Origin: a virus
DNA: 64,000 nucleotides
Direction: 5' to 3' (one strand)
Virus record (IMG/VR): IMGVR_UViG_3300046517_000603
Coordinates: 1-64,000 of that record
Below are positions 5,848-61,100 of this stretch, piece by piece. Made by a program: the position numbers and the translations under genes. Below the pieces are notes generated by a model, which saw only the letters and a program-made list of their open reading frames with translations, was not told the DNA's origin and did not search any database. Each line of letters begins with the position of its first letter. Positions within the stretch are counted from its first letter, which is position 1.

Positions 5848-6384
5848 ATGCCAAGAATGACAGCTCAGCTCGTGCTGGGGGAGTCCATCCTGGACATCAA
5901 AGCCGGACATTGGCTTTGTGGCGAGATCATGCAGGCGGCGGAAGCCAACGGAAACAAGAAGCCGGACGGCTGCGCAGTCGGCCTCGCAGTCATCAATGCG
6001 AAGCTCGCACCTATCGTCATCGAGGAGGACACCACGGGGCAGTTCGAGTCGGGCCTGTATGCGTATTGCCCGATCATCTTGAATCCATCGGAATACTTCA
6101 AAGGCGACGGGGAATACACCCAGGCTCAGCTGAAGGCACTGGAGAAGTCGATCATGGCGCTTGCTCTGGCCATCCCGATGGACTTCCGGGACGTCACAAC
6201 GATCGAGCATACAGGCGCAGACGGAGAGAGTTACTGGGAAGACATCCCACTCTCCAACGACGAGATCAAGGACTTCAGCATCAATCAGTTGGAGAAAATC
6301 GTCATCGAGTACAACGACTCCAGCATCAACGCTCACGAAGCGGAGCAGTGGTTTCAAGCAGCGTACGACAGCGTCAAGAGCTGA
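5848..6384 (+). CDS. Hypothetical protein, 178 aa
   Basis: ATG 5848 behind CCGAAGGAGGGTC. It begins MPRMTAQLVLGESIL and has long acidic helices in its second half (IKDFSINQLEKIVIEYND, NAHEAEQWFQAAYDSV). The sequence around residues 28-55 (AAEANGNKKPDGCAVGLAV) might be a nucleotide- or metal-contact loop, but I cannot match a family. Two bases separate it from the next gene. Confidence 0.75.
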   Translation: MPRMTAQLVLGESILDIKAGHWLCGEIMQAAEANGNKKPDGCAVGLAVINAKLAPIVIEEDTTGQFESGLYAYCPIILNPSEYFKGDGEYTQAQLKALEKSIMALALAIPMDFRDVTTIEHTGADGESYWEDIPLSNDEIKDFSINQLEKIVIEYNDSSINAHEAEQWFQAAYDSVKS

Positions 6385-6385
6385 A

Positions 6386-6613
6386 ATGCCAGTTCCTCTG
6401 ATCATCGGCTTGACATACGAGATCGAATATCGGCTCTCGTCTCAACGCAGACGTCATGTGTTGGTCGGAATGTACCTGGGTGTGGATACCAAGCATTGCC
6501 GAGTATTCAACACGAGAACAGACTGGGTATACGATCCGGCTGCCATGATCGTCATACCGGCCGAATCTGTCACATCGTATCGACGGATGACAGATCAGGA
6601 AGTGATGGGGTAG
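6386..6613 (+). CDS. Hypothetical protein, 75 aa
   Basis: ATG 6386, one base after the previous stop. Mostly beta: LIIGLTYEIEYRL, RRRHVLVGMYLGVD, HCRVFNTRTDWVYDP, AMIVIPAESVTSYRRM. This looks like a small barrel, similar in outline to SH3- or Tudor-like phage proteins, but no family is assigned. Ends 9 bases before an 11-bp hairpin. Confidence 0.7.
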   Translation: MPVPLIIGLTYEIEYRLSSQRRRHVLVGMYLGVDTKHCRVFNTRTDWVYDPAAMIVIPAESVTSYRRMTDQEVMG

Positions 6614-6621
6614 TGGGTTGC

Positions 6622-6664
6622 GAGCCTGTCCCACCGGGGCAGGCTCGGAGTTCATTCGGACTCC
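6622..6664 (+). promoter_or_regulatory. Double hairpin leader upstream of gene at 6684
   Basis: GAGCCTGTCCC/GGGGCAGGCTC with a 3-base loop (6622-6646) abutting GGAGTTC-ATTC-GGACTCC (6647-6653, 6658-6664), then CCGAAGGAGGG. Confidence 0.8.
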
Positions 6665-6683
6665 ATTAACCGAAGGAGGGTCA

Positions 6684-7214
6684 ATGGCTTCGACAGCCTG
6701 GACAGAGGATCCAGCATCGGAGGCTCAGCTCGCGTTCATACAAGACCTCTCACAGAAGCACGAGATGTCTGATGAGCAAGCTGAGTTCCTTGCCAGAGTC
6801 GGCATGGGTGGACGTAAGCTAAGCAAAGGCGAAGCGTCCAAGATCATCACGGCTCTCAAGGAGATGCCCCGGAAGGCACAGTCGCGAGACTGGCCTGATA
6901 TCCCTGCCGGTCGCTACGCCATTGTCGATCCGCTAGACGATGTCCTCAAGTTCTACCGCGTGGACAAGCCGACGGAAGGCAAGTGGCAGGGCTTCACGTT
7001 CCTGAGCGTGTACGCTTCAGATGAACAGTACCCAATCAAGAACAAGGAGCACAAGAAAGCGATCATGGATGAGATCGCCAAGAATCCCGAAGCTGCCATG
7101 TCTCGGTACGGTCTTGAGATCGGCAAGTGCGGGATCTGCGGACGAACGCTCACAGATGAAACCAGCAGGGCTCGGGGTATCGGCCCGATCTGCGCAGCCA
7201 AGGAAGGCTGGTGA
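6684..7214 (+). CDS. DUF6011-like zinc protein, 176 aa
   Basis: ATG 6684 follows CCGAAGGAGGGTCA. The C-terminus (about residues 149-176) has the signature GKCGICGRTLTDETSRARGI followed by GPICAAK, a zinc motif I associate with DUF6011 proteins of actinobacteria and their phages. The N-terminus (SEAQLAFIQDLSQKHEMS... LSKGEASKIITALKEM) matches the small helical module often found before such zinc knuckles. Probable nucleic-acid or protein-binding role; exact function unknown. The stop overlaps the next start. Confidence 0.8.
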   Translation: MASTAWTEDPASEAQLAFIQDLSQKHEMSDEQAEFLARVGMGGRKLSKGEASKIITALKEMPRKAQSRDWPDIPAGRYAIVDPLDDVLKFYRVDKPTEGKWQGFTFLSVYASDEQYPIKNKEHKKAIMDEIAKNPEAAMSRYGLEIGKCGICGRTLTDETSRARGIGPICAAKEGW

Positions 7215-7417
7215 TGGCTCAGCTGAACCTTCAAGTCACTCGCGCCGGCAACGTGATCACGGTGAAAACAGACACCAACACCGAGATTTTCAGCGCCGAG
7301 TACAAGAATCGAGGCGAGATCATCGACCATTGCCTCTGGCTAGCTCGAACAGGTAGAGTCAATGCCGATCGTCAAACGATCATCGACCTGCTGAAGAAGA
7401 ACGGTGTGATCACTTGA
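7214..7417 (+). CDS. Hypothetical protein, 67 aa
   Basis: ATG 7214 (or GTG 7211) overlaps the previous TGA. Two strands (LNLQVTRAGNVITVKTDTNTEIF) are followed by a helix (NRGEIIDHCLWLARTG) and a C-terminal helix (DRQTIIDLLKKNG). Member of a four-gene coupled block ending at 7757. Not recognised. Confidence 0.7.
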   Translation: MAQLNLQVTRAGNVITVKTDTNTEIFSAEYKNRGEIIDHCLWLARTGRVNADRQTIIDLLKKNGVIT

Positions 7418-7545
7418 ATGAGTTCCGGTGGTACATACGCCGACTCACTCTCGATGAGATCCTCGGCCTGGTCAGAACGCAGAACGTACCGAAAGCGTTC
7501 ATGCCGGCGATTCTCTCCGAGTTGAAACGAAGGAAGTACACATGA
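7414..7545 (+). CDS. Small basic hypothetical protein, 43 aa
   Basis: TTG 7414 overlaps the previous stop (TTGA) and its own TGA overlaps the next ATG, so it fills the gap exactly between two coupled genes. The product is helical and basic (FRWYIRRLTLDEILGLVR ... ILSELKRRKY), like a small helix-turn-helix or adaptor. No family assigned. Confidence 0.6.
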   Translation: MNEFRWYIRRLTLDEILGLVRTQNVPKAFMPAILSELKRRKYT

Positions 7546-7757
7546 TCAAGTGGCGTGAAGTCGAATCGAGCAACGTTGATAGCATCGGCTGGGATGACAA
7601 AGGCAATATGTACGTCCGGTACATCGGATCTGGTAAGACGTACATGTATGTTGGCGTTCCTCGTCAACGCGCCGTAGCTGCCTCGCGAGCTAAGAGCGTA
7701 GGAAGCTACATCGCGCGTCACATCAAAGGTCGGTACGAGCCAGTACACATCGGCTAG
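7542..7757 (+). CDS. KTSC-domain protein, 71 aa
   Basis: The whole protein matches the layout of the KTSC domain: an SSNVDSIGWD start, a strand (MYVRYIGSGKTYMYVGVP) and the AKSVGSYIARHIKGRYE ending, where family members have A-x-S-x-G-x-Y-x-x-x-x-I. KTSC domains occur alone or joined to lysyl-tRNA synthetase-like and nuclease proteins and probably bind nucleic acid. ATGA-coupled to the 43-residue gene; last gene of its block. Confidence 0.8.
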   Translation: MIKWREVESSNVDSIGWDDKGNMYVRYIGSGKTYMYVGVPRQRAVAASRAKSVGSYIARHIKGRYEPVHIG

Positions 7758-7761
7758 TAGT

Positions 7762-7806
7762 GGGTGTCTCAGATAGGCTCTGAGACGCCCGGTACCAGTC
7801 GGTGCC
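7762..7806 (+). promoter_or_regulatory. Double hairpin leader upstream of gene at 7837
   Basis: GGGTGTCTCAG/CTGAGACGCCC (7762-7772, 7780-7790) abutting GGTACC-AGTC-GGTGCC (7791-7806), then GAGAGGAGGGG. Confidence 0.8.
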
Positions 7807-30248: not shown

Positions 30249-31808
30249 CTAGTAGTAGGTCACGTCGCGAACGTGCTCCCAATCAGCGTAGTCAGCCTTG
30301 GCGTTCGACCATAGCCGTTGAGTCGTCGGTGGGTAGTGATCGCGTAGCCACTGCCAGATCTGACCCGAGCGAGAGAGTAGCGTCAGCTGGAGCCCAGCGG
30401 GCTTGGCAGCTATAAGCGCCGCGAGCGTCTTGGCCTGATCTGGAGTCTGAGACAAGTATGTGATGAACGTGATATGGTAGGCCCGATCCTGTCCGGGGAA
30501 GTTGGTGTCGTACCGCTCGTAGACGATCACCGTCTTGTTGCCGGTGAGCGTGAACTGGGCAGCTTTGATCATTGACTGTAGCGTCCCACGCTTCCAGCCG
30601 GGGGCGTCGTGGATCATCGCTCGCTTGTCGGGATTGGAGAGATTCGTGAAGGAAAGAACTGGAATCCCGACGACCTGCGCTAGCCAGTCTAGGAATTTGG
30701 ACGGAACATCGTCCACGTTGAGGATTAGCTCCCACCCCGGATCGACGGCCAGTGCGTACGGCTCGTGGACGATGTAGCAAATCGACTTGAAGAAGTTGAG
30801 CATCGGCCAGCCCGTGAACTCGTCGGCCCACGCGAGCGGCAGCATCGCGTTGTAGAGGATGTAGGTGAACGGCCCATCGATGGCCGGTACATCTCGCGGG
30901 TCTGGCGGTGGAGCCGGTGGCGGAGGAGTCGGTGGTGGGATGGGAGGGAAGACCGGAACATCGGTATGGCCAACCGCTGGAGCTGCCGTTGAGGTAGAGA
31001 TCCCTGGCGGAGCTGCCGAGGCCCGCATTGTACTGACTCCGGCCATCGCTACCGCTGTCGAGAGCGCGACGACTGTCAATGCTGCCATCTTGGAGTTACC
31101 GGCGGGAGCTGAAGCCGTGGCCGTCGCTGGAGCGCAGATCCCTTGGAGCGACTTCATGCTCCCAGCGGGGAGCGCCGAGGCCGTTGCTATAGCTGGTGTC
31201 GCGTTACCCTTCTTGCCGAGAGAGCCGCCACCCAGGTTGTCCAGAGCGACAGACTGCGATCCTGAGATCCGTAGACCAAAGTACTGACTCGCGACGACAC
31301 CAAAGTAAGTATCGGTGTAGTTGCATTGCAGAACCCAAGCGCCACCTGTCCACGCATAGCACCAAATCTGCATGCCGGTTGTACCGGACGGCTCGAAGTA
31401 CACCCAGAGTCTCGTGCAGTTTGCGGTTGCTCCGCTGTTCGATGCGAGCGTTGTGTCTGCCCCGGCGACCATTCGGTTCAGCCGGTAGATGTCATTCGCC
31501 TGATCACAGACGAAGCGCCATCCGTAGCCTACCGCCGTAAGTCCGAAGATCAGCTGGAAGTTCTGGCCTCCGCTGAAACTCGCCAAGTCGATGTAGCACT
31601 CGGCGCCACCGGAAGCATCGAATAGCGTGTTAAAGTAACTAGAGGCGGGGATGTTCTGCCCGACGTAGGCGACAGCGTTATTGCCACCAATCTTGAGAGA
31701 ACTCTCTCCGGACAGGGCGGGAGAAGACCAAGCCGACCCGAGTGACCCAGAGTCCGCGCGATTGAAGTTGTCGAGACTTCCGGTTTGTGGGTTAGCTCCC
31801 GGAGGCAT
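30249..31808 (-). CDS. Tail protein I fused to lectin-like module, 519 aa
   Basis: Baseplate wedge component joined to a carbohydrate-binding-like head. Residues 10-200 form a beta-sandwich (LDNFNRADSGSLGSAW ... SVALDNLGGG) similar to the first part of the giant protein at 46743-48947. Residues 205-290 are Ala/Pro/Ser-rich repeats (ATASAPAG, MRASAAPPG). The C-terminal 210 residues resemble P2 gpI-type tail proteins (LPLAWADEFTGWPMLNFFKS, SNPDKRAMIHDAPGWKRG). ATG 31808 overlaps the baseplate J stop (TAATG). Gene order J-I-fibre is as in P2-like phages. Confidence 0.78.
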   Translation of the reverse strand: MPPGANPQTGSLDNFNRADSGSLGSAWSSPALSGESSLKIGGNNAVAYVGQNIPASSYFNTLFDASGGAECYIDLASFSGGQNFQLIFGLTAVGYGWRFVCDQANDIYRLNRMVAGADTTLASNSGATANCTRLWVYFEPSGTTGMQIWCYAWTGGAWVLQCNYTDTYFGVVASQYFGLRISGSQSVALDNLGGGSLGKKGNATPAIATASALPAGSMKSLQGICAPATATASAPAGNSKMAALTVVALSTAVAMAGVSTMRASAAPPGISTSTAAPAVGHTDVPVFPPIPPPTPPPPAPPPDPRDVPAIDGPFTYILYNAMLPLAWADEFTGWPMLNFFKSICYIVHEPYALAVDPGWELILNVDDVPSKFLDWLAQVVGIPVLSFTNLSNPDKRAMIHDAPGWKRGTLQSMIKAAQFTLTGNKTVIVYERYDTNFPGQDRAYHITFITYLSQTPDQAKTLAALIAAKPAGLQLTLLSRSGQIWQWLRDHYPPTTQRLWSNAKADYADWEHVRDVTYY

Positions 31809-42583: not shown

Positions 42584-43245
42584 TAATTCACCCCTTCCGA
42601 TTCTACGTCAACGATCACGTCCTGGGCCTCTGGCCATTGGCTGCCAGGTTGCGTCTCCGGGTCAGGATCTTCGATGAACGGATACGTGCGTGGCCCTCCC
42701 CTCTTGTCGAGAACGGAATCAACTGCTACCTCGAAGAACCCAACTCCGGTAGAGATGGTTCGCTCGTCCTCTGGAATAAAGATGTCGTCGTAGCTCTCGT
42801 CCATCCACTCTGTGTGGAACGCGACGCCGCCGCAGTCCGGCTTCTGAAGGATGATTCCACGCACGGCTGCCGCGTACACCTTCGCGAGCTGGTTCGTTGA
42901 GTTCTGATCTCTAGCCGAGACGAACGCAGCCACCCCGATGTTCCAGATCGCGGTGAAGGTTCCGTCGCCCTCCATCGTCGGTTTGCGGGCAAGTCCAGGC
43001 GAGAAGACGAGCAGCCCCGGCAATTGCTGCTCATCGAAGCGGTCGATTCTGCTGAAGGTTGTGAACGAGCGAATCGCCGGTAGATGTTGGTCAGCTGGAT
43101 AGCCGAGTTGAAGTTCCATCTCGCGCAGATAGACCGGCATCCAATCGTGAAGATGTCGAAGGATGGACTCCTCGATGGAAGCTCCATCGACTATCGGCCC
43201 GAAGATGTCACTGACTACCGCTGATGGGGTAGACATACCCTCCAT
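42583..43245 (-). CDS. Tail terminator-like protein, 220 aa
   Basis: Probably caps the tail tube and binds the head connector. The sequence has a helix (SIEESILRHLHDWMPVYLRE) and a beta core (QQLPGLLVFSPGLARKP, FTAIWNIGVAAFVSA) consistent with terminator folds. The start is unclear: ATG 43245 or 43236, both near GAGAGG/GGAGGG. Placement between the Mu-gpG-like protein and the sheath is where terminators lie. Confidence 0.65.
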   Translation of the reverse strand: MEGMSTPSAVVSDIFGPIVDGASIEESILRHLHDWMPVYLREMELQLGYPADQHLPAIRSFTTFSRIDRFDEQQLPGLLVFSPGLARKPTMEGDGTFTAIWNIGVAAFVSARDQNSTNQLAKVYAAAVRGIILQKPDCGGVAFHTEWMDESYDDIFIPEDERTISTGVGFFEVAVDSVLDKRGGPRTYPFIEDPDPETQPGSQWPEAQDVIVDVESEGVN

Positions 43246-43894
43246 ATCCTCTCGTCCGCTTAGCTCCGCTGACTCCACCAAACCACTGCTCGTACACGTA
43301 ATCCTCAATGATCTGCATCATCCGGATGCGATCTGCCTGAGTGATCAGCAGATAGTCGCGCCCTGGGATCTTGTTCTTTCCGCCGCCGAACCGTTGGACT
43401 TGAGCGTAAGGAATGCCCTCGACTCCGACGATGACATGCCTCGCGCCGATCTCTCCAACGCTCTCATCTGTATGCCCCACCGCAGCGTTGTAGAGCCGAT
43501 CGGTTAGACGTACCGGCTCGAAGACATGCTTGGGGACGCCCTTGCGGTTGACGGGATGTAGCGTCGGGCCGAACTTGTTGCCCCTCTTGGTCGTGAATCC
43601 TCCGTGAGGATTTGATCCGGTGATAGTGAGGCCCGAGGTTCCAGCGACCAGCCTCATCTTCTTCCTGATGGTAGCAGGCTTCAGAGCTGCCCAGCTTCCT
43701 CCCCGGCGGCGACCCTCGGACTCGAAGTTGGCCCTGATCAGATCTTTGATATGCCGACCGATCAGTCGCATCGCGGGTTCCATATGCTCAGCGCGATCAA
43801 TGGTGAGGTTGTACTTCTCCAGGATCGGCTGCATATTCTCGACAGTAACGCTGAACCCCGTGAATTGTTTGTCGATCACCAGCGGGTACTCCAT
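43208..43894 (-). CDS. Phage virion morphogenesis protein (Mu gpG/P2 gpS-like), 228 aa
   Basis: Tail completion protein. The sequence ESEGRRRGGSWAALKPATIR, then LTDRLYNAAVG, then QVQRFGGGKNKIPGRDYLLI follows the family pattern W-x-x-L-x-x-x-T ... LxxTGxL ... R-x-F-x-G. Basic overall. It overlaps the next upstream gene by 19 bases and the terminator-like gene by up to 38. Confidence 0.8.
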   Translation of the reverse strand: MEYPLVIDKQFTGFSVTVENMQPILEKYNLTIDRAEHMEPAMRLIGRHIKDLIRANFESEGRRRGGSWAALKPATIRKKMRLVAGTSGLTITGSNPHGGFTTKRGNKFGPTLHPVNRKGVPKHVFEPVRLTDRLYNAAVGHTDESVGEIGARHVIVGVEGIPYAQVQRFGGGKNKIPGRDYLLITQADRIRMMQIIEDYVYEQWFGGVSGAKRTRGYGGYVYPISGSQ

Positions 43895-44610
43895 CCAACA
43901 AGAATGCTGGTGTCGGGGAAGGTATAGGCCGCCATCCCAGGGCTGAGTGCATCTTCGCCGGTGATCAGCTCTCCCTGCTCGCGCTCGATCGCTTTCTCCA
44001 GGTTCAGCATGAAGTTGTCGAACATCGCGGCGTACTGAGGGTATGGGGAGCGGCCGGTGTTGATTTGCTCCGGCCAGTAGCCTAGCTCGACCAGCATGGC
44101 GGTGCGGTAAATGATCGCTTGCTTGGCGTAGCGGTAGGCACCCGGAGGGATGTCTACGTCGAAACCCGCCATCACGTCGTCAGCCGCCTGAACGATGAGC
44201 CGGTTGACTTCCTCGCCGGTCGGTCGAGTGTCCTCGTTGAACGTTCCGACCTCATCCCCCATGACGGTTACGGTACGCGCTCTCATGAGAGCCCCGATGT
44301 CCGCCAGAGTCGGCAGATACGGCATTGTCTCGCTGGGGATGTTCTGGATCGGAACGGTTGGAACTGCCGTGGAGGCGGCAGGATCGTGGAAGATGATCTG
44401 ATACCAGCCGTTCGGTAGCGTCGCCTGGTCAGTCGTGAAGGCGCGCGCCATCGGCTCCGTTGGGTTGGAATCGAGCGGGCTTAGGGGCTGGACGTCAATT
44501 TCCGTCCAAGGCCCGCTCGAACCAATCGACTCCTCGATGTGGATCGAGTTCCAGGGGATGCCGTCGAACTTTGGAGGCGGAGTAAAGTCTTCAAATGTGA
44601 CGACGTACAT
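43876..44610 (-). CDS. Head-tail connector/adaptor-like protein, 244 aa
   Basis: The N-terminal ~100 residues are a beta-sandwich (YVVTFEDFTPPPKFDG, IHIEESIGSSGPWTEIDVQP) and the C-terminal part is helical (IGALMRARTVTVMGDEVG, QAADDVMAGFDVDIPPGAYR) like gp6/gp15-type adaptors that bind the portal. The two-part build is unusual for adaptors, which are normally only the helical part. ATG overlaps the upstream giant protein's stop. Confidence 0.65.
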   Translation of the reverse strand: MYVVTFEDFTPPPKFDGIPWNSIHIEESIGSSGPWTEIDVQPLSPLDSNPTEPMARAFTTDQATLPNGWYQIIFHDPAASTAVPTVPIQNIPSETMPYLPTLADIGALMRARTVTVMGDEVGTFNEDTRPTGEEVNRLIVQAADDVMAGFDVDIPPGAYRYAKQAIIYRTAMLVELGYWPEQINTGRSPYPQYAAMFDNFMLNLEKAIEREQGELITGEDALSPGMAAYTFPDTSILVGWSTRW

Positions 44611-46742
44611 CAGAACCTTTCGTAGGATTGAACGATCCGTCCCGTCTTAGGCACTATCATGTCTCCGTCCGGAGCCTGCCAGACCACTCCTGGGGTATAA
44701 GTATAGCTCATCCCGGAACCTACGATGACTACTCGGGATTTCAGTCCATCGAAGATCGCCTGAGTAGGTACGGCATAGACGTAAACAAACGATCCAAAGC
44801 TTGGGGTCACAGTATTGAATACGGATGCTGCCGCCGGGGCATCCAGCCGGATAGCGACCAGGGGAGAGCCAACAGTCGCCTGCCAAGCACCGGCTGGTGC
44901 CCCAACGATTGCTCCCGTCAAGAATGACGGAGCCACAGCCGAGAAGGTGGAGGTCGCCACAGGAGTCACGAGTAGCTTGGAGACTACGAAGCTCGGCGCT
45001 AGCGCGCTCATAGTCATCGTTGCCGGCGGGATGACGACACTACTCGACTCTAGTAGGATCGGCGCGCTCGATGCGTAGCTCGCTGTCGCAGGCGGTACAA
45101 CGACGAGTACCCCCGACCCGGCGAGAATCCCCGGAGCGGTACTCGCGAACGTTGCAGAGGCCGGAGGCATTGTGACAGTAGCCGTCCGCGTCACCACCGG
45201 CGCCAGAGTGCTGAAGGTTGAGGTCGCGACCGGAGCCACCACAGTAGCTCCAGCACCCGTGACGAACGTCGGAGCTACAGAGCTAGATGTGAAGATACCC
45301 GGAGGAGCGACAACTGTCCCACTTTGCTGGATCCCAGGAGCGACAGAGCTAGCCGAGAAAGCAGCCGGTGGTACCGCTATCGTGATCCCGGCCCCAGTCT
45401 GAATGGCTGGTGTGGGCGCTGTGAAGGTTGCGAGGGCAGGAGGCGAAGGATAGAACGAATGGAGGAAGATGAATGGCCCGACTGCGGCTGCCGTCCAGAT
45501 CCCTGGCGGAACAGTCAAGGTATTGATCTGAACAGGAGCCACCGAAGTCGCCGTCCAGATCGCAACCGTCGCAGTCAAAGAGATAGACGTTTGGATCGGA
45601 GGCGCCACCGAACTGAAAGTCGCCAGGGCCGCGCTGGGGGCTATGCTCCCGCCGCGCGAGAGCCCAGCCGAGACAGCCGAGAAGGTCGTCACTCCTGGTG
45701 GAGCTACAACAAGGTTGGTGAACGTGACGGGCGGCGCGACCGATGAGAACGTCGTCAGCGCGGCGCTAGGCGCCATCAATCTGCCTAGTCCTGGCGAGAT
45801 GGAAGATGCCGTAAATACAGCGACAGGCGATATAATGAGCAGAAGCAGATTGGGCGCTACAGTCGAAGCTGTGAAGATCCCTGGCGGCGACGTCAGCAGA
45901 ATTGACTTCGTTAGTACGGGTGCGACCGAACTGCCAGAGAAGGTGGCAGGTGGCGCAACTACCGTCTTCGATATGGCGATGGATACTGTCGGAGCTACGG
46001 ACGACGCCGAGAAGGTACCGGGTGGAGTGATGACTCCACCGCCCAATCCTGGTGCTACCGAGCTAGCGGTCAAGACTGCCGGCGGAGCTACAACCGTCGC
46101 ATCTCTCGCTATCACCGGAGCGACAGAACTGCCTGTGAATGTCGCTGGTGGCGCGACTATTGTGTTCGAGACAACACTGAGCGGGTAGTCCGCCGCCGTC
46201 TGAGACACTTGCACCAGATCGCAGTTAAGGGTGACGAACACCGAGAACCCAGTTGTGTGCCCGAGATAGATCCCGTTGACTGTTGAGGCAGCAACAGCAT
46301 AGGTGATCTGTGTCTGGGGAACACCGTCGATCTGCCAGTCGATCACCCACGGATTCGCAGACTGGTTAATACGGAACTCAAAGAGATACCATTGTCCAGC
46401 TACCGGCGTAACATTGGACAGGCGATCCATCGCCTGTGCTGTCCCATTGATCCACCCGAACTTGTTTGACGCTATGTCGTAACCGAAACGAGGGCCACCG
46501 TTCAAAGTCATCAATTCGATGCCCTGGCTCGGAATAGCCGCAAGACAGATCCAAGCTTTGAACACAGTGATGGGGCCAGAAGTCCAAGTGTGGAGTCCAT
46601 AAGCAGGATCACCATTGAACCTGGCCGATTTGGCTCCAGTTTTGAAGACAACGGTGTCAATCGAGGCATTCGAGTTCCCGCCAGGAAAGATCGTGGCAAT
46701 CGTGTTCGTCTCGAAATCCTCGTTCCAGATTAGGGTTGCCAC
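44610..46742 (-). CDS. Giant repeat protein A with lectin-like N-terminus, 710 aa
   Basis: Unrecognised structural protein. GTG 46742 follows GGGAGC. Residues 1-190 form a LamG/concanavalin-like sandwich (WNEDFETNTIATIFPGGNSN, KAWICLAAIPSQGIE). Then come about 21 imperfect repeats of ~21 residues built as I/V-APPA-x-F-TASSVAP-x5 (for example VVAPPATFSGSSVAPVL). The end is a distinct ~50-residue beta tail (YTYTPGVVWQAPDGDMIVPK). Repeats are nearly free of charged residues. Position between neck genes suggests a virion fibre or decoration rather than a baseplate part. Confidence 0.7.
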   Translation of the reverse strand: MATLIWNEDFETNTIATIFPGGNSNASIDTVVFKTGAKSARFNGDPAYGLHTWTSGPITVFKAWICLAAIPSQGIELMTLNGGPRFGYDIASNKFGWINGTAQAMDRLSNVTPVAGQWYLFEFRINQSANPWVIDWQIDGVPQTQITYAVAASTVNGIYLGHTTGFSVFVTLNCDLVQVSQTAADYPLSVVSNTIVAPPATFTGSSVAPVIARDATVVAPPAVLTASSVAPGLGGGVITPPGTFSASSVAPTVSIAISKTVVAPPATFSGSSVAPVLTKSILLTSPPGIFTASTVAPNLLLLIISPVAVFTASSISPGLGRLMAPSAALTTFSSVAPPVTFTNLVVAPPGVTTFSAVSAGLSRGGSIAPSAALATFSSVAPPIQTSISLTATVAIWTATSVAPVQINTLTVPPGIWTAAAVGPFIFLHSFYPSPPALATFTAPTPAIQTGAGITIAVPPAAFSASSVAPGIQQSGTVVAPPGIFTSSSVAPTFVTGAGATVVAPVATSTFSTLAPVVTRTATVTMPPASATFASTAPGILAGSGVLVVVPPATASYASSAPILLESSSVVIPPATMTMSALAPSFVVSKLLVTPVATSTFSAVAPSFLTGAIVGAPAGAWQATVGSPLVAIRLDAPAAASVFNTVTPSFGSFVYVYAVPTQAIFDGLKSRVVIVGSGMSYTYTPGVVWQAPDGDMIVPKTGRIVQSYERF

Positions 46743-48947
46743 CTACGCTCCCACATGATCAGGCCAGGAATTAGAGTCCACGATGTCTCCGGGCGGGTAG
46801 GTGTAGATGGCAGGGGAGCTGAAGGTATGAGGGGCTGGGACAGGCGCGCTGAACGTAGTCTCGGCTGGGACGGCGCTCGTTCCTCGATTGAGTCCGATCG
46901 CCGTTGTGTTCGCCGTGAACGTCGCCGGTGGCGAGAACAGACGCAACATAGGGGCTGGATCCAAAGCGCCGAACAAAACGCGAGCAGCATCATCGAGCAC
47001 GACTGTCTTCTGAAGTCCGAGCGTCGGCGCTGATGCCCTCACTGTGAAGACCCCGACCGGAACCGGAACAGTCAATGCGAGCTGCGGCATAGACACGCTC
47101 GCAATCCAAATCCCGGCCGGGGAATTGACCGCCATCCCGAGCCCTGGCACGCTCGCGGAGAACGTCGCCCGAGATGGCGGAGCGGAGAGCTGAACAATCA
47201 AAGCCGGAACAAATACAGTCGCAGTGAAGATCCCTGGCGTTGGAAACAACCTCTGCCCAGGAATAGGCGAAGTTCCTCCGGCAATAAACTGAGCAGCTGG
47301 AATCGGAAGATCGAGGGAGAGCTTGACCGCTCCAGCTCCGAACGTCGCCGTAGACGGTGGCGCAATCGTGAGCGGACTCTGGATCGTCAGCGGAGCGCCG
47401 GAGGATGCCGTCCAGAACGCCGGTGGAATGAACTGTGTCAGGGCTGGAACTGGAACGGCGCTCGACGCCGTGAACGTAGCGGGCGGCACGCTCGACGCAG
47501 TTGAGTATCCAGGCGGAACGACCGAAGCCGAGAAGATTGCGGCCGGAACCGCAAGCGCGAATCCAGACCCGGCGACGAAAGATGGAGCAGCTGCGCTAGC
47601 CGTCCAGATCCCTGCCGTGACAACCGTCTGAAGTTTCAGTCCTGGGCCGACTCCCGAGAACGATGAGACTGCCGCTGCCGGGATCAGAGCCAGGCGAGGG
47701 CTCGGAGCAACGCTCGTGGCCGTGAACGCCGCAGCAGGCGGCAAGAACCTCTCGACCAGAAGAGGGTTCATTGCGTTCGCCGTAAGGAGCGCGACCGGCG
47801 AGAAGACAAGCACGCCGACGAACGGATTGGGCACCGGCGCGCTGAAGTTAGTGATCGCAGGCGGCACCACCATCAAGAGACTCAATGTCGGCGCGACCGT
47901 CGAGGCAGTCATGATCGCGGGCGGTGAAACGATTGAGGCGCTCACAATTACTAGCGGAGCCACCGCGCTCATGGTAAAAACAGGAGGGACTCCGAAAATC
48001 CGCTGCCCCAGTCCGGGCGCGACCGCTCCGAAGGTAGAGAGCGCAGGAGGCGTCACTGTGATGGGGGAGATAATGAATGATGGACTGAGAGAGTTCGCGA
48101 TGAGAAGCGCCGCTGGTGCTATCACGAGCGCCGTTCCAGAAACAATCGGCGCCACCGCGTTCCCCGCGAAAGAAGCAGCAGGCGCTACAATTGTCTTCGG
48201 AATACTAACAACCGGCGCTATTGGAGCTGCGGTGAAGACGGCTGGAGGCGCTACAACTGAGTCGTCTATCCGAGGCACTGGCGCGACCGAAGACATCGTT
48301 GCGCTCGCTGGCGGAGCTACGACAGTTTTGGATACTGCGGTCGCGCCGCCGCCAAAGTTATCGATGAAGGAGTTAAAGGTTTGACTAGATCCTAGACGGA
48401 CACCGATGTAACCAGAAGTCCTGAGCAAGGTAGTGTCCGTGGTGACGGGAAACGCTTGCGTCCAAGCCCCGGCATGCGAGTTACGATACATGCAATAGAT
48501 GTCGAGCCCTGGGCCGCTTGGCGTCGGCTCGACCCACATCCACATCTGGCCACCACCAGATACGTTTACGCCATCAGACTGATGAACGTTGGTATCAACC
48601 CCGGCCTGACAGACGACTAAGCGCAGTCTACCGTTGACCGCATCACTGACGAAGCGGTAGTGGTAACCAACAGCATACATATATCCAATAACCTGGACGC
48701 TGTACGCTGCTGACAAGACAATATCCAGATAGCTTTCGACCGCGCCAGCGGTAAAGTCGAAGACTGTTGCGTTCCAATAATCAGATGAAGGCTGCAACTG
48801 AGACCCCATCTGATTGCTGGAAATTGCACAACCGATATCAGCTGACACGGCAGCCGGAAAACTCCAGTTCGGGCCCATGGCTCCGTTCGCCCTGTTGAAG
48901 GCATCAATTACTGGAGTGCTAGGGCCAGTGGTCAAATTTGGTGGCAT
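46743..48947 (-). CDS. Giant repeat protein B with lectin-like N-terminus, 734 aa
   Basis: Partner and distant paralogue of the gene after it. Residues 1-200 form a lectin-like sandwich of the same kind as in the tail protein I fusion (VIDAFNRANGAMGPNW ... NSFIDNFGGG). About 24 imperfect repeats of ~20-22 residues follow (VVAPPAVFTAAPIAPVV, VPPATFTASSAVPVPAL). It ends with a short YTYPPGDIVD tail close to the tail of protein A. Its leader carries a 15-bp hairpin. Role unknown; a long, thin, host-binding fibre is likely. Confidence 0.7.
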   Translation of the reverse strand: MPPNLTTGPSTPVIDAFNRANGAMGPNWSFPAAVSADIGCAISSNQMGSQLQPSSDYWNATVFDFTAGAVESYLDIVLSAAYSVQVIGYMYAVGYHYRFVSDAVNGRLRLVVCQAGVDTNVHQSDGVNVSGGGQMWMWVEPTPSGPGLDIYCMYRNSHAGAWTQAFPVTTDTTLLRTSGYIGVRLGSSQTFNSFIDNFGGGATAVSKTVVAPPASATMSSVAPVPRIDDSVVAPPAVFTAAPIAPVVSIPKTIVAPAASFAGNAVAPIVSGTALVIAPAALLIANSLSPSFIISPITVTPPALSTFGAVAPGLGQRIFGVPPVFTMSAVAPLVIVSASIVSPPAIMTASTVAPTLSLLMVVPPAITNFSAPVPNPFVGVLVFSPVALLTANAMNPLLVERFLPPAAAFTATSVAPSPRLALIPAAAVSSFSGVGPGLKLQTVVTAGIWTASAAAPSFVAGSGFALAVPAAIFSASVVPPGYSTASSVPPATFTASSAVPVPALTQFIPPAFWTASSGAPLTIQSPLTIAPPSTATFGAGAVKLSLDLPIPAAQFIAGGTSPIPGQRLFPTPGIFTATVFVPALIVQLSAPPSRATFSASVPGLGMAVNSPAGIWIASVSMPQLALTVPVPVGVFTVRASAPTLGLQKTVVLDDAARVLFGALDPAPMLRLFSPPATFTANTTAIGLNRGTSAVPAETTFSAPVPAPHTFSSPAIYTYPPGDIVDSNSWPDHVGA

Positions 48948-49021: not shown

Positions 49022-49345
49022 TCACGCCTCCGGAGTTGACTCCGTCGGTGCCGTCGCTGGTGCGTCTTCGCTCTCGATCGACTTGATCTGCCACTGGCGA
49101 GCCAGAACTGCCTCCATGGAGGCGTCCGGGTCGTCAGTGTGCTCTCCTGATTGAGCGACTTCCTGAGTCGCGATGTCGAACGCTTGCCGCTCACAAACGA
49201 TCCGAGCGGCGTTCTCGCTCCCGGCCTGAAGGGTGATATCCCGCAGATATGGACGCTCGAAATCCTCGTCGATCGCGTCGTTGTGATCCGTGAAGGTCTG
49301 CGGTTGACCATCCGGCGGAACCATAATCACTCTGAAGATACTCAA
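49022..49345 (-). CDS. Hypothetical protein, 107 aa
   Basis: TTG 49345 follows GGAGGAG and overlaps the upstream stop (TTGA). Starts SIFRVIMVPPDGQPQTFTDH; a helical acidic middle and a Thr/Glu/Pro tail. Lies between a coiled-coil gene and giant protein B in the virion operon. Not recognised. Confidence 0.6.
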   Translation of the reverse strand: MSIFRVIMVPPDGQPQTFTDHNDAIDEDFERPYLRDITLQAGSENAARIVCERQAFDIATQEVAQSGEHTDDPDASMEAVLARQWQIKSIESEDAPATAPTESTPEA

Positions 49346-49749
49346 GAGTCTCCTCCGATCATGATGTCGGGTGACTTCTCCAGGAATCTGCCGAAGACCG
49401 GCCCCGCATTTCCTTCCTGCCATTCGGCGATCTGGATTTCCGCCCCCTTGAACTTTTCGAACAGCTCGCGATCCAAAGACACCACATCCTCTCCCGTATG
49501 AAGCAGGATCACATGCATACAGCAGATACAGAAGCGCGTGATCGTATGGGTCGCGATCTTGTGGATTTCCATTGCTTTCTTAAGCTCCCGAATCTCTGCC
49601 GCCTGCATCGCGATGATGTCTTGTGGCGTGACTTCGGCGGAAATTGAATCGAGAGCCCTTCTCCGAGTCGGATCTGGCCAGATAGCAGCTGGGGCGTAGA
49701 CCGTGAGATCTGGCCCCAGCCGCTCAACGCTACCGACCTTCTTGTTCAC
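49342..49749 (-). CDS. Hypothetical coiled-coil protein with Cys cluster, 135 aa
   Basis: GTG 49749 overlaps the upstream stop (GTGA). The centre has a helix (DIIAMQAAEIRELKKAMEIH) leading to a Cys/His cluster (HTITRFCICCMHVILLH), then an acidic C-terminal part. The FCICC motif could bind metal or form disulphides. Virion operon gene of unknown role. Confidence 0.6.
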   Translation of the reverse strand: MNKKVGSVERLGPDLTVYAPAAIWPDPTRRRALDSISAEVTPQDIIAMQAAEIRELKKAMEIHKIATHTITRFCICCMHVILLHTGEDVVSLDRELFEKFKGAEIQIAEWQEGNAGPVFGRFLEKSPDIMIGGDS

Positions 49750-50204
49750 GCCGCTGTACCCTTGAGGACGCCAGTAGCGTCCCACTGGATCGTGAACGTA
49801 CCCGAGGAGACTGACTGAGCAGCCCCCATGTCCACGAATCCCTGCAAGGGAGACGTAGTGGTCGTGCCCGTGTACTTGTAGATAACGGCAACCTGACAGG
49901 TGAACGTCGCGGATGCCCAGGATGCGTTCGCCGCCCCCAGACGCGACTCATTCGATGCGGTGTCGTAGGTACATGTCTTGGTTCCGAGTACGACGCCGCC
50001 AGACGTGTAGCCGCCTGCGGTAGCCAGCTCATTGGTGACTACGCTATAGAACTCATCGGTGTCCTGGTTGTAAGCGTAGGCCGCAGTGGTGAGAGCGACC
50101 TTGATGTTGGCGTCGGTGATCCAGTTGACGGGAACGGTTGCGCCGGTCGGGCCACCCCACTGATCTCTGATGGCCAGGCCGTACCACTTTGCAACAACTG
50201 CCAT
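49746..50204 (-). CDS. Structural paralogue 1, 152 aa
   Basis: ATG 50204 has TAGGAGG upstream. Beta-rich protein (NIKVALTTAAYAYNQDT, SGTFTIQWDATGVL) that aligns by eye along its whole length with the next gene (50215-50655): KWY near the start, W-I/V-x-D-x-x-IKV-x-L-x-T-x-AY, ELAT-x-x-GY, and SGT-Y/F-T at the end. A tandem duplication of a capsid- or neck-decorating protein is likely. The family is frequent near capsid genes of actinophages, function unknown. Confidence 0.7.
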   Translation of the reverse strand: MAVVAKWYGLAIRDQWGGPTGATVPVNWITDANIKVALTTAAYAYNQDTDEFYSVVTNELATAGGYTSGGVVLGTKTCTYDTASNESRLGAANASWASATFTCQVAVIYKYTGTTTTSPLQGFVDMGAAQSVSSGTFTIQWDATGVLKGTAA

Positions 50205-51267: not shown

Positions 51268-52227
51268 TTAGCCTGCGAGTCCGGTGATCTTGACGACGGC
51301 GTACGGCTGGTTGACAAACCACATCGGCCGAACGCTGCTCTGCGTCCAGTACCGCTGCGTCTCCTGCTCGTACCAGGCCTCGGTCATGAGAGGCTGCTCG
51401 ACTCGCATCTCTCCGACCTGACCCTGTGCGACGACGTACGCCACGCCGGGAGCGACCCTGTTGGTCACGAACAAGTCGTAACCCGTGCTGGCGAGCAGAT
51501 CGCTGAGGTAGTTGCCGTAAACGGTGGCGAGGTTGAAATACTCCTGCGGATTCATGATCCACAGGTCGTACGTGTATCCCAGCTCGTCCAGCTCTGCCAT
51601 CTGCGTAACGCGAGCGAAGTCACGCGCAGGCCAGAGAGTTGCGTTCGACGCGGACGAGCCGGTGGTGACCACCGTCGTCCAGTTGTTCCCAGTCGTGGTT
51701 CGAGAGAACGCCGTGATCGCAGCCTCCAACGTATCCACCGCGCGCTGATTGATCTTGCGAACCAGCGTGTTCGCCATCTGGCGAACTTGCTGCGTGTACG
51801 TGGAGATCTGGTTGCGGTCACGAGCCTCGGCCGTGATGTAGAACTTGGCGCCCCACTTCTCTACCTGCGCCACGCGCGGAGCGACCCGCTGAGACGTCAC
51901 GATCGGGAACTCTGCTCCCGGAGCGATCATCTCGAAGTCGCGTGTGAGGTAGAGCTGGTTCAGGAGCAGAACGTCATAGATGACCGCGCCGCCTGTCACG
52001 CCGCCCGCGTTGGTGAACACGCGATCGGCGAAGAACCGTTGGAGAGTCAGATCCATGAGTGTCTGCGTGACGCGTGTAGGGTTGTTGAGCGCCCAGTCCA
52101 CAGTGTAGGTCGTCCCTGAGAGCGTTGGCGGCCCGAGAGGGTGAGCGACTATGTTGGGGAAATACGATGCTTTGATCTCATCCTCCATGAGGAGGACGGC
52201 CCCGTTCGGTAGAACGTGATGCTTCAT
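51268..52227 (-). CDS. Major capsid protein, 319 aa
   Basis: HK97-fold capsid subunit judged by place, size and pattern: an N-arm (KHHVLPNGAVLLMEDEIKAS), long spine-like helix region (QQVRQMANTLVRKINQRAVD), and P-domain strands (YDLWIMNPQEYFNLATVYGN). Upstream are the decoration, protease and portal genes; downstream, the head accessory genes. Start either ATG 52227 or GTG 52239; the GGAGGGGG site sits closer to the GTG, so the shorter form is a mild preference only. Confidence 0.85.
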   Translation of the reverse strand: MKHHVLPNGAVLLMEDEIKASYFPNIVAHPLGPPTLSGTTYTVDWALNNPTRVTQTLMDLTLQRFFADRVFTNAGGVTGGAVIYDVLLLNQLYLTRDFEMIAPGAEFPIVTSQRVAPRVAQVEKWGAKFYITAEARDRNQISTYTQQVRQMANTLVRKINQRAVDTLEAAITAFSRTTTGNNWTTVVTTGSSASNATLWPARDFARVTQMAELDELGYTYDLWIMNPQEYFNLATVYGNYLSDLLASTGYDLFVTNRVAPGVAYVVAQGQVGEMRVEQPLMTEAWYEQETQRYWTQSSVRPMWFVNQPYAVVKITGLAG

Positions 52228-52245
52228 GTGTGTCTTCACCCCCTC

Positions 52246-60440: not shown

Positions 60441-61100
60441 CTACGGAGCCTTCACCAGATGGATGATGATCTCGTCCTGACCCGTGCAGCTATGGGGAGG
60501 ACTGACGTGTAGCTCGCCGGACGACGTATTTTCGCAAACAGGCAGAATAGTGAAGTTGTCGTCGTCGTCCTTCCCGCCTGGGCCAGTTGGTCCAGTCGGG
60601 CCACGCTGACCCGTGCCGGTTGGGCCTCGCGGGCCAGTAGCACCTTTTGGCCCAGTTGGGCCCTTGGGCCCTGGCGGCCCAGTGTCGCCCTTGTCGCCCT
60701 TTGGCCCGGTTGGGCCCTTTGGTCCAGTAGCACCCTTCGGCCCCGGAGCGCCGGTAGCGCCCTTTGGACCTGGAGGTCCAGTTGCTCCCTTGGGCCCGGT
60801 TGTCCCCTTCGGGCCTTTCGGGCCGGTGGCGCCTTTGGGCCCTGGCGGGCCAGGTGGGCCCGTGGCTCCCTTGGGGCCTGTTGCTCCACGCTGATTCCAG
60901 TTGAGTGGGATCTCGTAGAACTGGCACTGCGCCGTCGGCGCGTTGATGACGCGAAGAACGCCGGCAGTCTGCTGGGGCGTCCCGGTCTTGGCGTAGCAAC
61001 CGTGGATCACGCCATTCGCGTCAGGAATGCTAGCGTTGACAGCGGTGGCGACCCCGAACGTGGCTCCAGCCACAACCAAAGCCACTATGAGTCTCTTCAT
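60441..61100 (-). CDS. Secreted collagen-like protein, 219 aa
   Basis: ATG 61100 follows GGGAGGGAG. Signal peptide [20 protein letters not shown]; then a small N-terminal block ([35 protein letters not shown]) very like secreted proteins of soil Actinobacteria; then ~32 Gly-X-Y triplets rich in GATGPKG and GPPGPKG (residues 72-175); then a Cys-containing C-terminal domain. In virions such repeats form a triple helix; a signal peptide is odd for a virion part and suggests host origin or export to the cell surface. Confidence 0.82.

Follow-up and report, generated by a model that had tools for sequence, protein, structure and literature searches.

Adjacent phage genes for candidate adhesion fibres with lectin-like heads and a repeat stalk of even spacing

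The window analyzed here is the whole stretch of 64,000 nucleotides that forms positions 1 to 64,000 of the IMG/VR record IMGVR_UViG_3300046517_000603. It belongs to a soil-type phage, a myophage whose terminase and sheath indicate a distant relationship to cultured Arthrobacter and Gordonia phages. On the minus strand of the window, two open reading frames, called P2 and P1, abut each other and the next gene, and each encodes an N-terminal head, a stalk of repeats and a short C-terminal tail (Table 1). The preliminary description had presented them as two adjacent giant proteins; the adjacency and the coordinates are exact, but with 710-734 residues the products are large rather than giant. 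The gene that follows, for a likely head-tail adaptor, overlaps the stop of P1 by one base, and its product has an apparent extra N-terminal beta-rich domain of about 95 residues (MYVVTFEDFTPPPKFDG...) that is kept in relatives and is a possible docking site for a neck fibre. Two small conserved genes of unknown function lie just upstream of P2 on the minus strand (49022-49423 and 49342-49785); the second product has a heptad-like helix (MQAAEIRELKKAMEIHK) and might serve as the base of a fibre or as a chaperone. The window also encodes, upstream of the terminase gene, a collagen-like protein (60441-61100, minus strand; Pfam Collagen, E 2.5e-15) with a putative N-terminal signal peptide, recognized by reading, and with DNA that forms a tandem repeat.

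Table 1. Features of the P2-P1 locus and of the gpI-like baseplate gene in the window.
Feature	Position	Strand	Remarks
Tail completion / Neck1	43208..43894	minus	phrog_26, E 3e-15
Likely head-tail adaptor, directly downstream of P1	43876..44610	minus	assigned by position and sequence, without family match
P1	44610-46742	minus	710 aa; head and tail flank 20 detected repeats
P1 C-terminal tail, aa 675-710	44613..44720	minus	ends ...YTYTPGVVWQAPDGDMIVPKTGRIVQSYERF
P1 repeat stalk, about aa 195-674	44721..46160	minus	position-specific matrix
P1 head, aa 1-190	46173..46742	minus	LamG/ConA-like (tentative); apparently a recently exchanged cassette, dS 0.09 to G1b
P2	46743-48947	minus	734 aa; head and tail flank 23 detected repeats
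P2 C-terminal tail, aa 707-734	46746..46829	minus	ends ...YTYPPGDIVDSNSWPDHVGA
P2 repeat stalk, about aa 209-706	46830..48323	minus	spacings 20/22/24; position-specific matrix
P2 head, aa 1-203	48339..48947	minus	predicted FNRAN-type concanavalin-A-like beta-sandwich; predicted structure and Foldseek
Two small paralogous phrog_644 proteins, between capsid gene and P2	49746..50655	minus	PHROGs match
Major capsid protein, upstream flank	51268..52239	minus	phrog_1650, E 1e-73
gpI-like baseplate protein	30249..31808	minus	Pfam Tail_P2_I at residues 360-418
gpI N-terminal P2-type head	31224-31808	minus	36-43% identical to P2 head (three gpI proteins compared)
gpI segment of about 84 aa homologous to four repeats	about 30972-31223	minus	homology to L053 and L054; Pro-rich linker also present

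The repeat, PPA-x-F-T-x-S-S-V-A-P, was located with a position-specific matrix for its 12-residue core PPAxFTASSVAP, refined over 12 related proteins. The matrix detects 43 units in total, which bears out the more than 40 copies reported earlier, and corrects the separate counts from about 21 and 24 to 20 in P1 and 23 in P2. Residue-shuffled versions of the two proteins gave a mean of 0.4-0.5 units and a maximum of 2 in the same scan. Of the residues in the repeat regions, only 2.9% (P1) and 4.6% (P2) are charged and none is cysteine, in agreement with the view of the repeats as nearly charge-free. Searches with both proteins and their profiles gave no match for the repeat in Pfam, PHROGs, NCBIfam or PDB sequences, so that it could still not be placed in a known family, and neither P1 nor P2 matched a known decoration family in PHROGs, Pfam, NCBIfam or PDB sequences. 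A link to surface-layer or cellulosome linkers, named beforehand as a finding that would speak against a phage fibre, was looked for as well: the repeat has no such match in Pfam or NCBIfam, and no relative of it or of the P1 C-terminal segment was found in the GTDB species genomes scanned. A tblastn search of 50,697 phage records gave no match for P1, P2, the P2 head or the stalk of contig L063.

The repeat was found only in related phages: apart from the window phage, it occurs in the two halves of contig G001, in contigs matching those halves, and in four further contigs (L063/L074, L072, L075 and L076). Contig G001 (IMGVR_UViG_3300046533_000294, positions 1-129757, 129.8 kb) holds two complete related phage genomes head to tail, with blocks that are mostly 72-89% identical and offset almost uniformly by about 65 kb, and is either an assembly chimera or a real dimer.

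Both proteins had been said to start with a lectin-like sandwich. For P2 this is supported by the AlphaFold2 model of the head, which reaches a pLDDT of about 72-89 over residues 60-180 and resembles a concanavalin-A-like two-sheet jelly-roll sandwich. Its best match among solved structures is the carbohydrate-binding module CBM66 (4b1l, Foldseek E 1.2e-4), followed by galectins, legume lectins and a baseplate chain of mycobacteriophage Douge, and among the BFVD viral models many of its nearest named matches are minor tail and tail fibre proteins of actinophages. At the level of sequence, the P2 head has no match in Pfam or PDB. The assignment of the P1 head as LamG/ConA-like is more weakly supported: the low-confidence model of the window P1 head has no match better than E 3.5e-3, its hits being sialidase, laminin-G and galectin domains, and Pfam Laminin_G_3 is detected in one distant P1-type member (E 1.2e-4). 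The heads probably bind a glycan of the host surface or of the surroundings, although concanavalin-A-like domains may also bind proteins or serve structure alone, which counts against a glycan-binding reading. FNRAN-type heads also occur in seven unrelated viral contigs (L055, L057, L059, L061, L065, L067 and L068), joined there to other low-complexity repeats (SGTDSNGTTTESA, AGTITPAGVLAKSLAR, TGSGDLAIPALTLAGTGTF, STTALTDTVTTAGSRKTF and SPSASVSPSSS), and a family of proteins with a concanavalin-A-like head and a short-period stalk may be widespread.

The genomic position of the pair is conserved. In all relatives with flanking sequence, P2 and P1 follow the capsid and phrog_644 genes and precede the adaptor and Neck1 genes, near the capsid gene and within the head module, as expected for genes of head fibres or decoration proteins. 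In the more distant contig L036 the same interval holds a P1-type head together with a collagen-like fibre, and L042 encodes a P1-type head attached to other repeats, flanked by the genes for the portal and for a phrog_240 head protein. In the cultured Gordonia phage Chidiebere the gene in the interval matches phrog_2647, 'head decoration' (E 7.5e-108), and in Arthrobacter phage Bumble the interval holds small genes only. The capsid-to-adaptor interval thus seems to behave as a slot for fibre genes. In L075 an extra gene with matches to tail fibre PHROGs (6027-7790, plus strand; E 3.5e-10) lies between P2 and P1, which means that the interval can collect other fibre genes.

A head of the P2 type is also found at the N-terminus of the gpI-like baseplate protein, followed by a segment of about 84 residues related to the stalk repeats and by a Pro-rich linker. 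In the gpI proteins of L053 and L054 this segment contains two and four repeat units, spaced 22 and 22-20-20, respectively (p below 0.001). Direct detection of repeats in the gpI of the window was not significant with the matrix scan (p 0.2), and the presence of a repeat segment there is claimed because it is homologous to those of L053 and L054, where detection is significant. The preliminary description had set P1 and P2 apart from the baseplate fibres. This holds for their genes, which are in the head/neck block, but the occurrence of a P2-type head on gpI means that the head type is not confined to that block.

These observations bear on whether P1 and P2 could be side fibres of the tail or baseplate, encoded in the head block by chance and carrying tail-borne receptor-binding domains as heads. 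The fusion of a P2-type head to gpI, the tail proteins among the nearest BFVD matches and the tail-fibre-like gene of L075 all point that way. Nonetheless, the position of the pair between the capsid/phrog_644 and the adaptor/Neck1 genes is conserved, P1-type heads also occur in the head blocks of distant phages, the corresponding gene of Chidiebere encodes a protein of a 'head decoration' family, and no tail-docking domain was recognized in P1 or P2. A location on the tail is therefore rather unlikely, and a head or neck fibre, as first proposed, is still the best reading of the head-block position and the lectin-like heads. On the other side, gene position suggests a site rather than fixing it, and the head type of gpI works at the baseplate too.

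Comparison between relatives indicates that the heads behave as cassettes swapped between phages by recombination. The DNA of P1 is 92-100% identical to that of the close relative G1b from the start codon to about residue 265-275 and only 46-80% beyond, and in the comparison with G1a the high identity stops at about residue 190-200, where the head ends. The synonymous divergence (dS) of the P1 head is 0.09 to G1b and 0.28 to G1a, compared with values of 0.69-1.9 to G1a in the capsid, protease/scaffold, phrog_644, adaptor and sheath genes. An unrelated domain takes the place of the P1 head in L063 and L075 (L063:10973-11611 and L075:8194-8810); it is of the sequence type VGNYIFVCVAW / AGNLLVAACV and has no Pfam, PHROG or NCBIfam match, and stalk and tail are retained. 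The head of gpI appears to be exchanged as well, given that it is 86% identical to that of G1a and 45% to that of G1b, with the gpI body at 68% in both. Domains are also found inside the stalk: a CBM_4_9 domain in P1 of G1a (E 6e-9), a CBM/LamG-like sequence below the Pfam cut-off in L076, and, in P2 of L063 and L075, a large domain whose sequence, on reading, looks like that of the replacement P1 head.

The tails were described as similar and short, with beta character, and P1 and P2 do have the motif Y-x-Y-x-P-G in common at this end. Over its last 36 residues P1 shares 64-86% identity with four distant orthologues, the stalks of which are only 38-46% identical. Conservation of the P2 tail amounts to 44-61% only, and G1a and G1b carry a divergent allele of the P1 tail (47-58% identical), which is a caveat to anchoring by the C-terminus. 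Neither the exchange of heads nor the conservation of this end had been noticed in the preliminary description. The simplest reading of a conserved tail combined with exchanged heads is that the C-terminus is the anchor and the N-terminus the tip. The opposite polarity, with the N-terminal concanavalin-A-like domain as capsid-binding base and the C-terminal tail as distal tip, would agree with the N-terminal anchor of most phage fibres (tail fibres, PMC10684548; neck fibres, PMC6669499) and with the very high conservation of the heads between the window and G1a. However, this high identity is explained by recent exchange (dS 0.09-0.58), in L063 and L075 the swap of the head left stalk and tail in place, and gpI has its head at the N-terminus and the virion-docking baseplate domain at the C-terminus. 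Together these points make an N-terminal base improbable and favour the C-terminal anchor.

The spacing of the repeats provides information on the stalk itself. Instead of the period of about 21 residues suggested at first, both the spacing counts and the autocorrelation show periods of 20, 22 and 24, with a weaker half-period peak at 11 in the autocorrelation of P1 and P2. Across the 12 proteins, neighbouring cores are 20 (n=88), 22 (n=130) or 24 (n=25) residues apart and six distances are odd, so that spacing is even in 243 of 249 cases (range 19-24). These distances are not fully independent, because orthologues share the order of their units, but the window alone already obeys the rule, with all 19 spacings of P1 and all 20 of those in P2 within the range 20-24 being even. 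In addition, 235 of the 279 units carry an aromatic residue at exactly one of the core positions 4 and 6, and no unit has one at both (p 1e-38), as expected for a single aromatic slot shifted by two residues on one face of a strand. Steps of two residues keep a side chain on the same face of a beta-strand. Even spacing and the strand-face rule make a strand-based fibre the natural reading, and these patterns point to a stalk built of beta-strands.

AlphaFold2 models of the repeats, based on 10-12 homologous rows, are all-beta with about two predicted strands per repeat, mostly at pLDDT <50. Structure prediction of the repeats had been recommended as a check on the long solenoid or stalk; the stalk-like region stands, but models of this confidence do not argue for a solenoid, and even steps suit a beta-strand fibre at least as well. 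Foldseek matches of the stalk, such as coronavirus spikes, were discarded as low-confidence noise, and Foldseek was read for the heads only. Tandem Repeats Finder detected no DNA tandem array at the repeat regions, which indicates repeats of old origin that have since diverged. A recent tandem duplication is rejected for want of an array and because orthologues align unit by unit. For the same reason it is very improbable that even spacing merely records DNA slippage in 6-base steps: 20, 22 and 24 residues do differ by multiples of 6 bases, but the DNA repeats are gone, parity persists across strongly diverged proteins, and the aromatic slot also shifts by exactly two residues, exclusively.

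Taken together, we consider it probable, at roughly 60%, that P2 and P1 are paired adhesion fibres of the virion, anchored by their C-termini, most likely on the capsid or neck, and equipped with swappable glycan-binding heads. The sequences themselves show the repeats and their even spacing, the swapped heads, the conserved tails and gene position and the module on gpI, and modelling supports the fold of the P2 head; we infer the site on the virion, the oligomeric state, the fold of the stalk, the anchoring end and the binding of glycans. The short conserved tail would anchor each fibre on capsid or neck, the stalk, some 20-35 repeats that each span 20, 22 or 24 residues, would extend as beta-strands, and the concanavalin-A-like head would be presented outward. 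Recombination between phages would exchange the heads, breaking at the start of the gene and within the stalk, and further carbohydrate-binding domains would be inserted into the stalk. Grafting of a head-plus-stalk module onto gpI could give one virion such heads at both ends, with P1 and P2 as accessory adhesion fibres. That the two are instead secreted or cell-surface proteins of infection is hardly credible: their low charge and Thr/Ser/Pro/Ala-rich sequence recall some surface linkers, but no signal peptide is apparent by reading at either N-terminus, the genes abut structural genes in one late block, and a paralogous head sits on a baseplate protein. More speculatively than the fibre reading itself, the repeat might represent a new viral beta-fibre fold that serves as a plug-in stalk, with uncharged repeats of 20, 22 or 24 residues lengthened two residues at a time, lectin or CBM domains within it, recombined heads, and use at both head/neck and baseplate.

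Several known systems follow related strategies. The neck passage structure (NPS) of lactococcal 936 and P335 phages consists of collar fibres with exchangeable carbohydrate-binding modules (PMC6669499), and the likeness lies in head- or neck-associated fibres that end in such modules, the site of P1 and P2 being deduced from their genes. In the NPS, a helical coiled-coil shaft links an N-terminal BppU-like ring domain to a C-terminal CBM (PMC6669499), whereas in P1 and P2 the head is N-terminal, the shaft is a repeat of predicted beta type and a ring domain was not recognized; where the NPS has its ring, the P2 N-terminus models as concanavalin-A-like, and the repeats model as all-beta at low confidence. 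T4 Hoc, T5 pb10, SPP1 gp12 and phi29 gp8.5 are accessory head proteins thought to aid contact with cell-surface carbohydrates (PMC7602432), but their folds differ (Ig-like, helical coiled coil and others) and no sequence relation to P1 or P2 was found. In mycobacteriophage Douge, glycan-binding domains cover capsid and tail (PMC13033339; PDB 8zdo). One baseplate chain of this phage of actinobacteria matches the fold of the P2 head, but the repeat stalk was not found there by sequence. CBM66 (PDB 4b1l, 4azz), although the best fold match of the P2 head, is only about 11% identical to it.

The triple beta-spiral shafts of adenovirus fibre and reovirus sigma1, which are attached to the capsid, have two short strands per repeat and Pro/Gly turns (PMC7565637). 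The stalks of P1 and P2 may resemble them, with about two strands predicted per repeat, mostly at pLDDT <50, but the spiral repeats are shorter, and neither P2 nor the P1 profile matched any PDB sequence. For a stalk of 480 residues, the published rises of 15 angstroms per 17 residues in a triple beta-spiral and per 31 in a triple beta-helix (PMC7565637) give an estimated length of about 42 nm or 23 nm, respectively. Domain shuffling is established in receptor-binding and neck proteins (PMC10684548), and the idea of a lectin-tipped phage fibre is already known; what is new here is the repeat family and its length rule, which is unusually strict and predicts a definite fold. The locus also offers a clear natural record of how phage fibres swap sugar-binding-type heads, among them swaps between the head block and the baseplate. 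These proteins differ from those of known phages with related strategies in their repeat, in a polarity that is probably reversed and in the second use of the module on the baseplate, and the stalk, if its fold is new, would add to the few viral beta-fibre types known.
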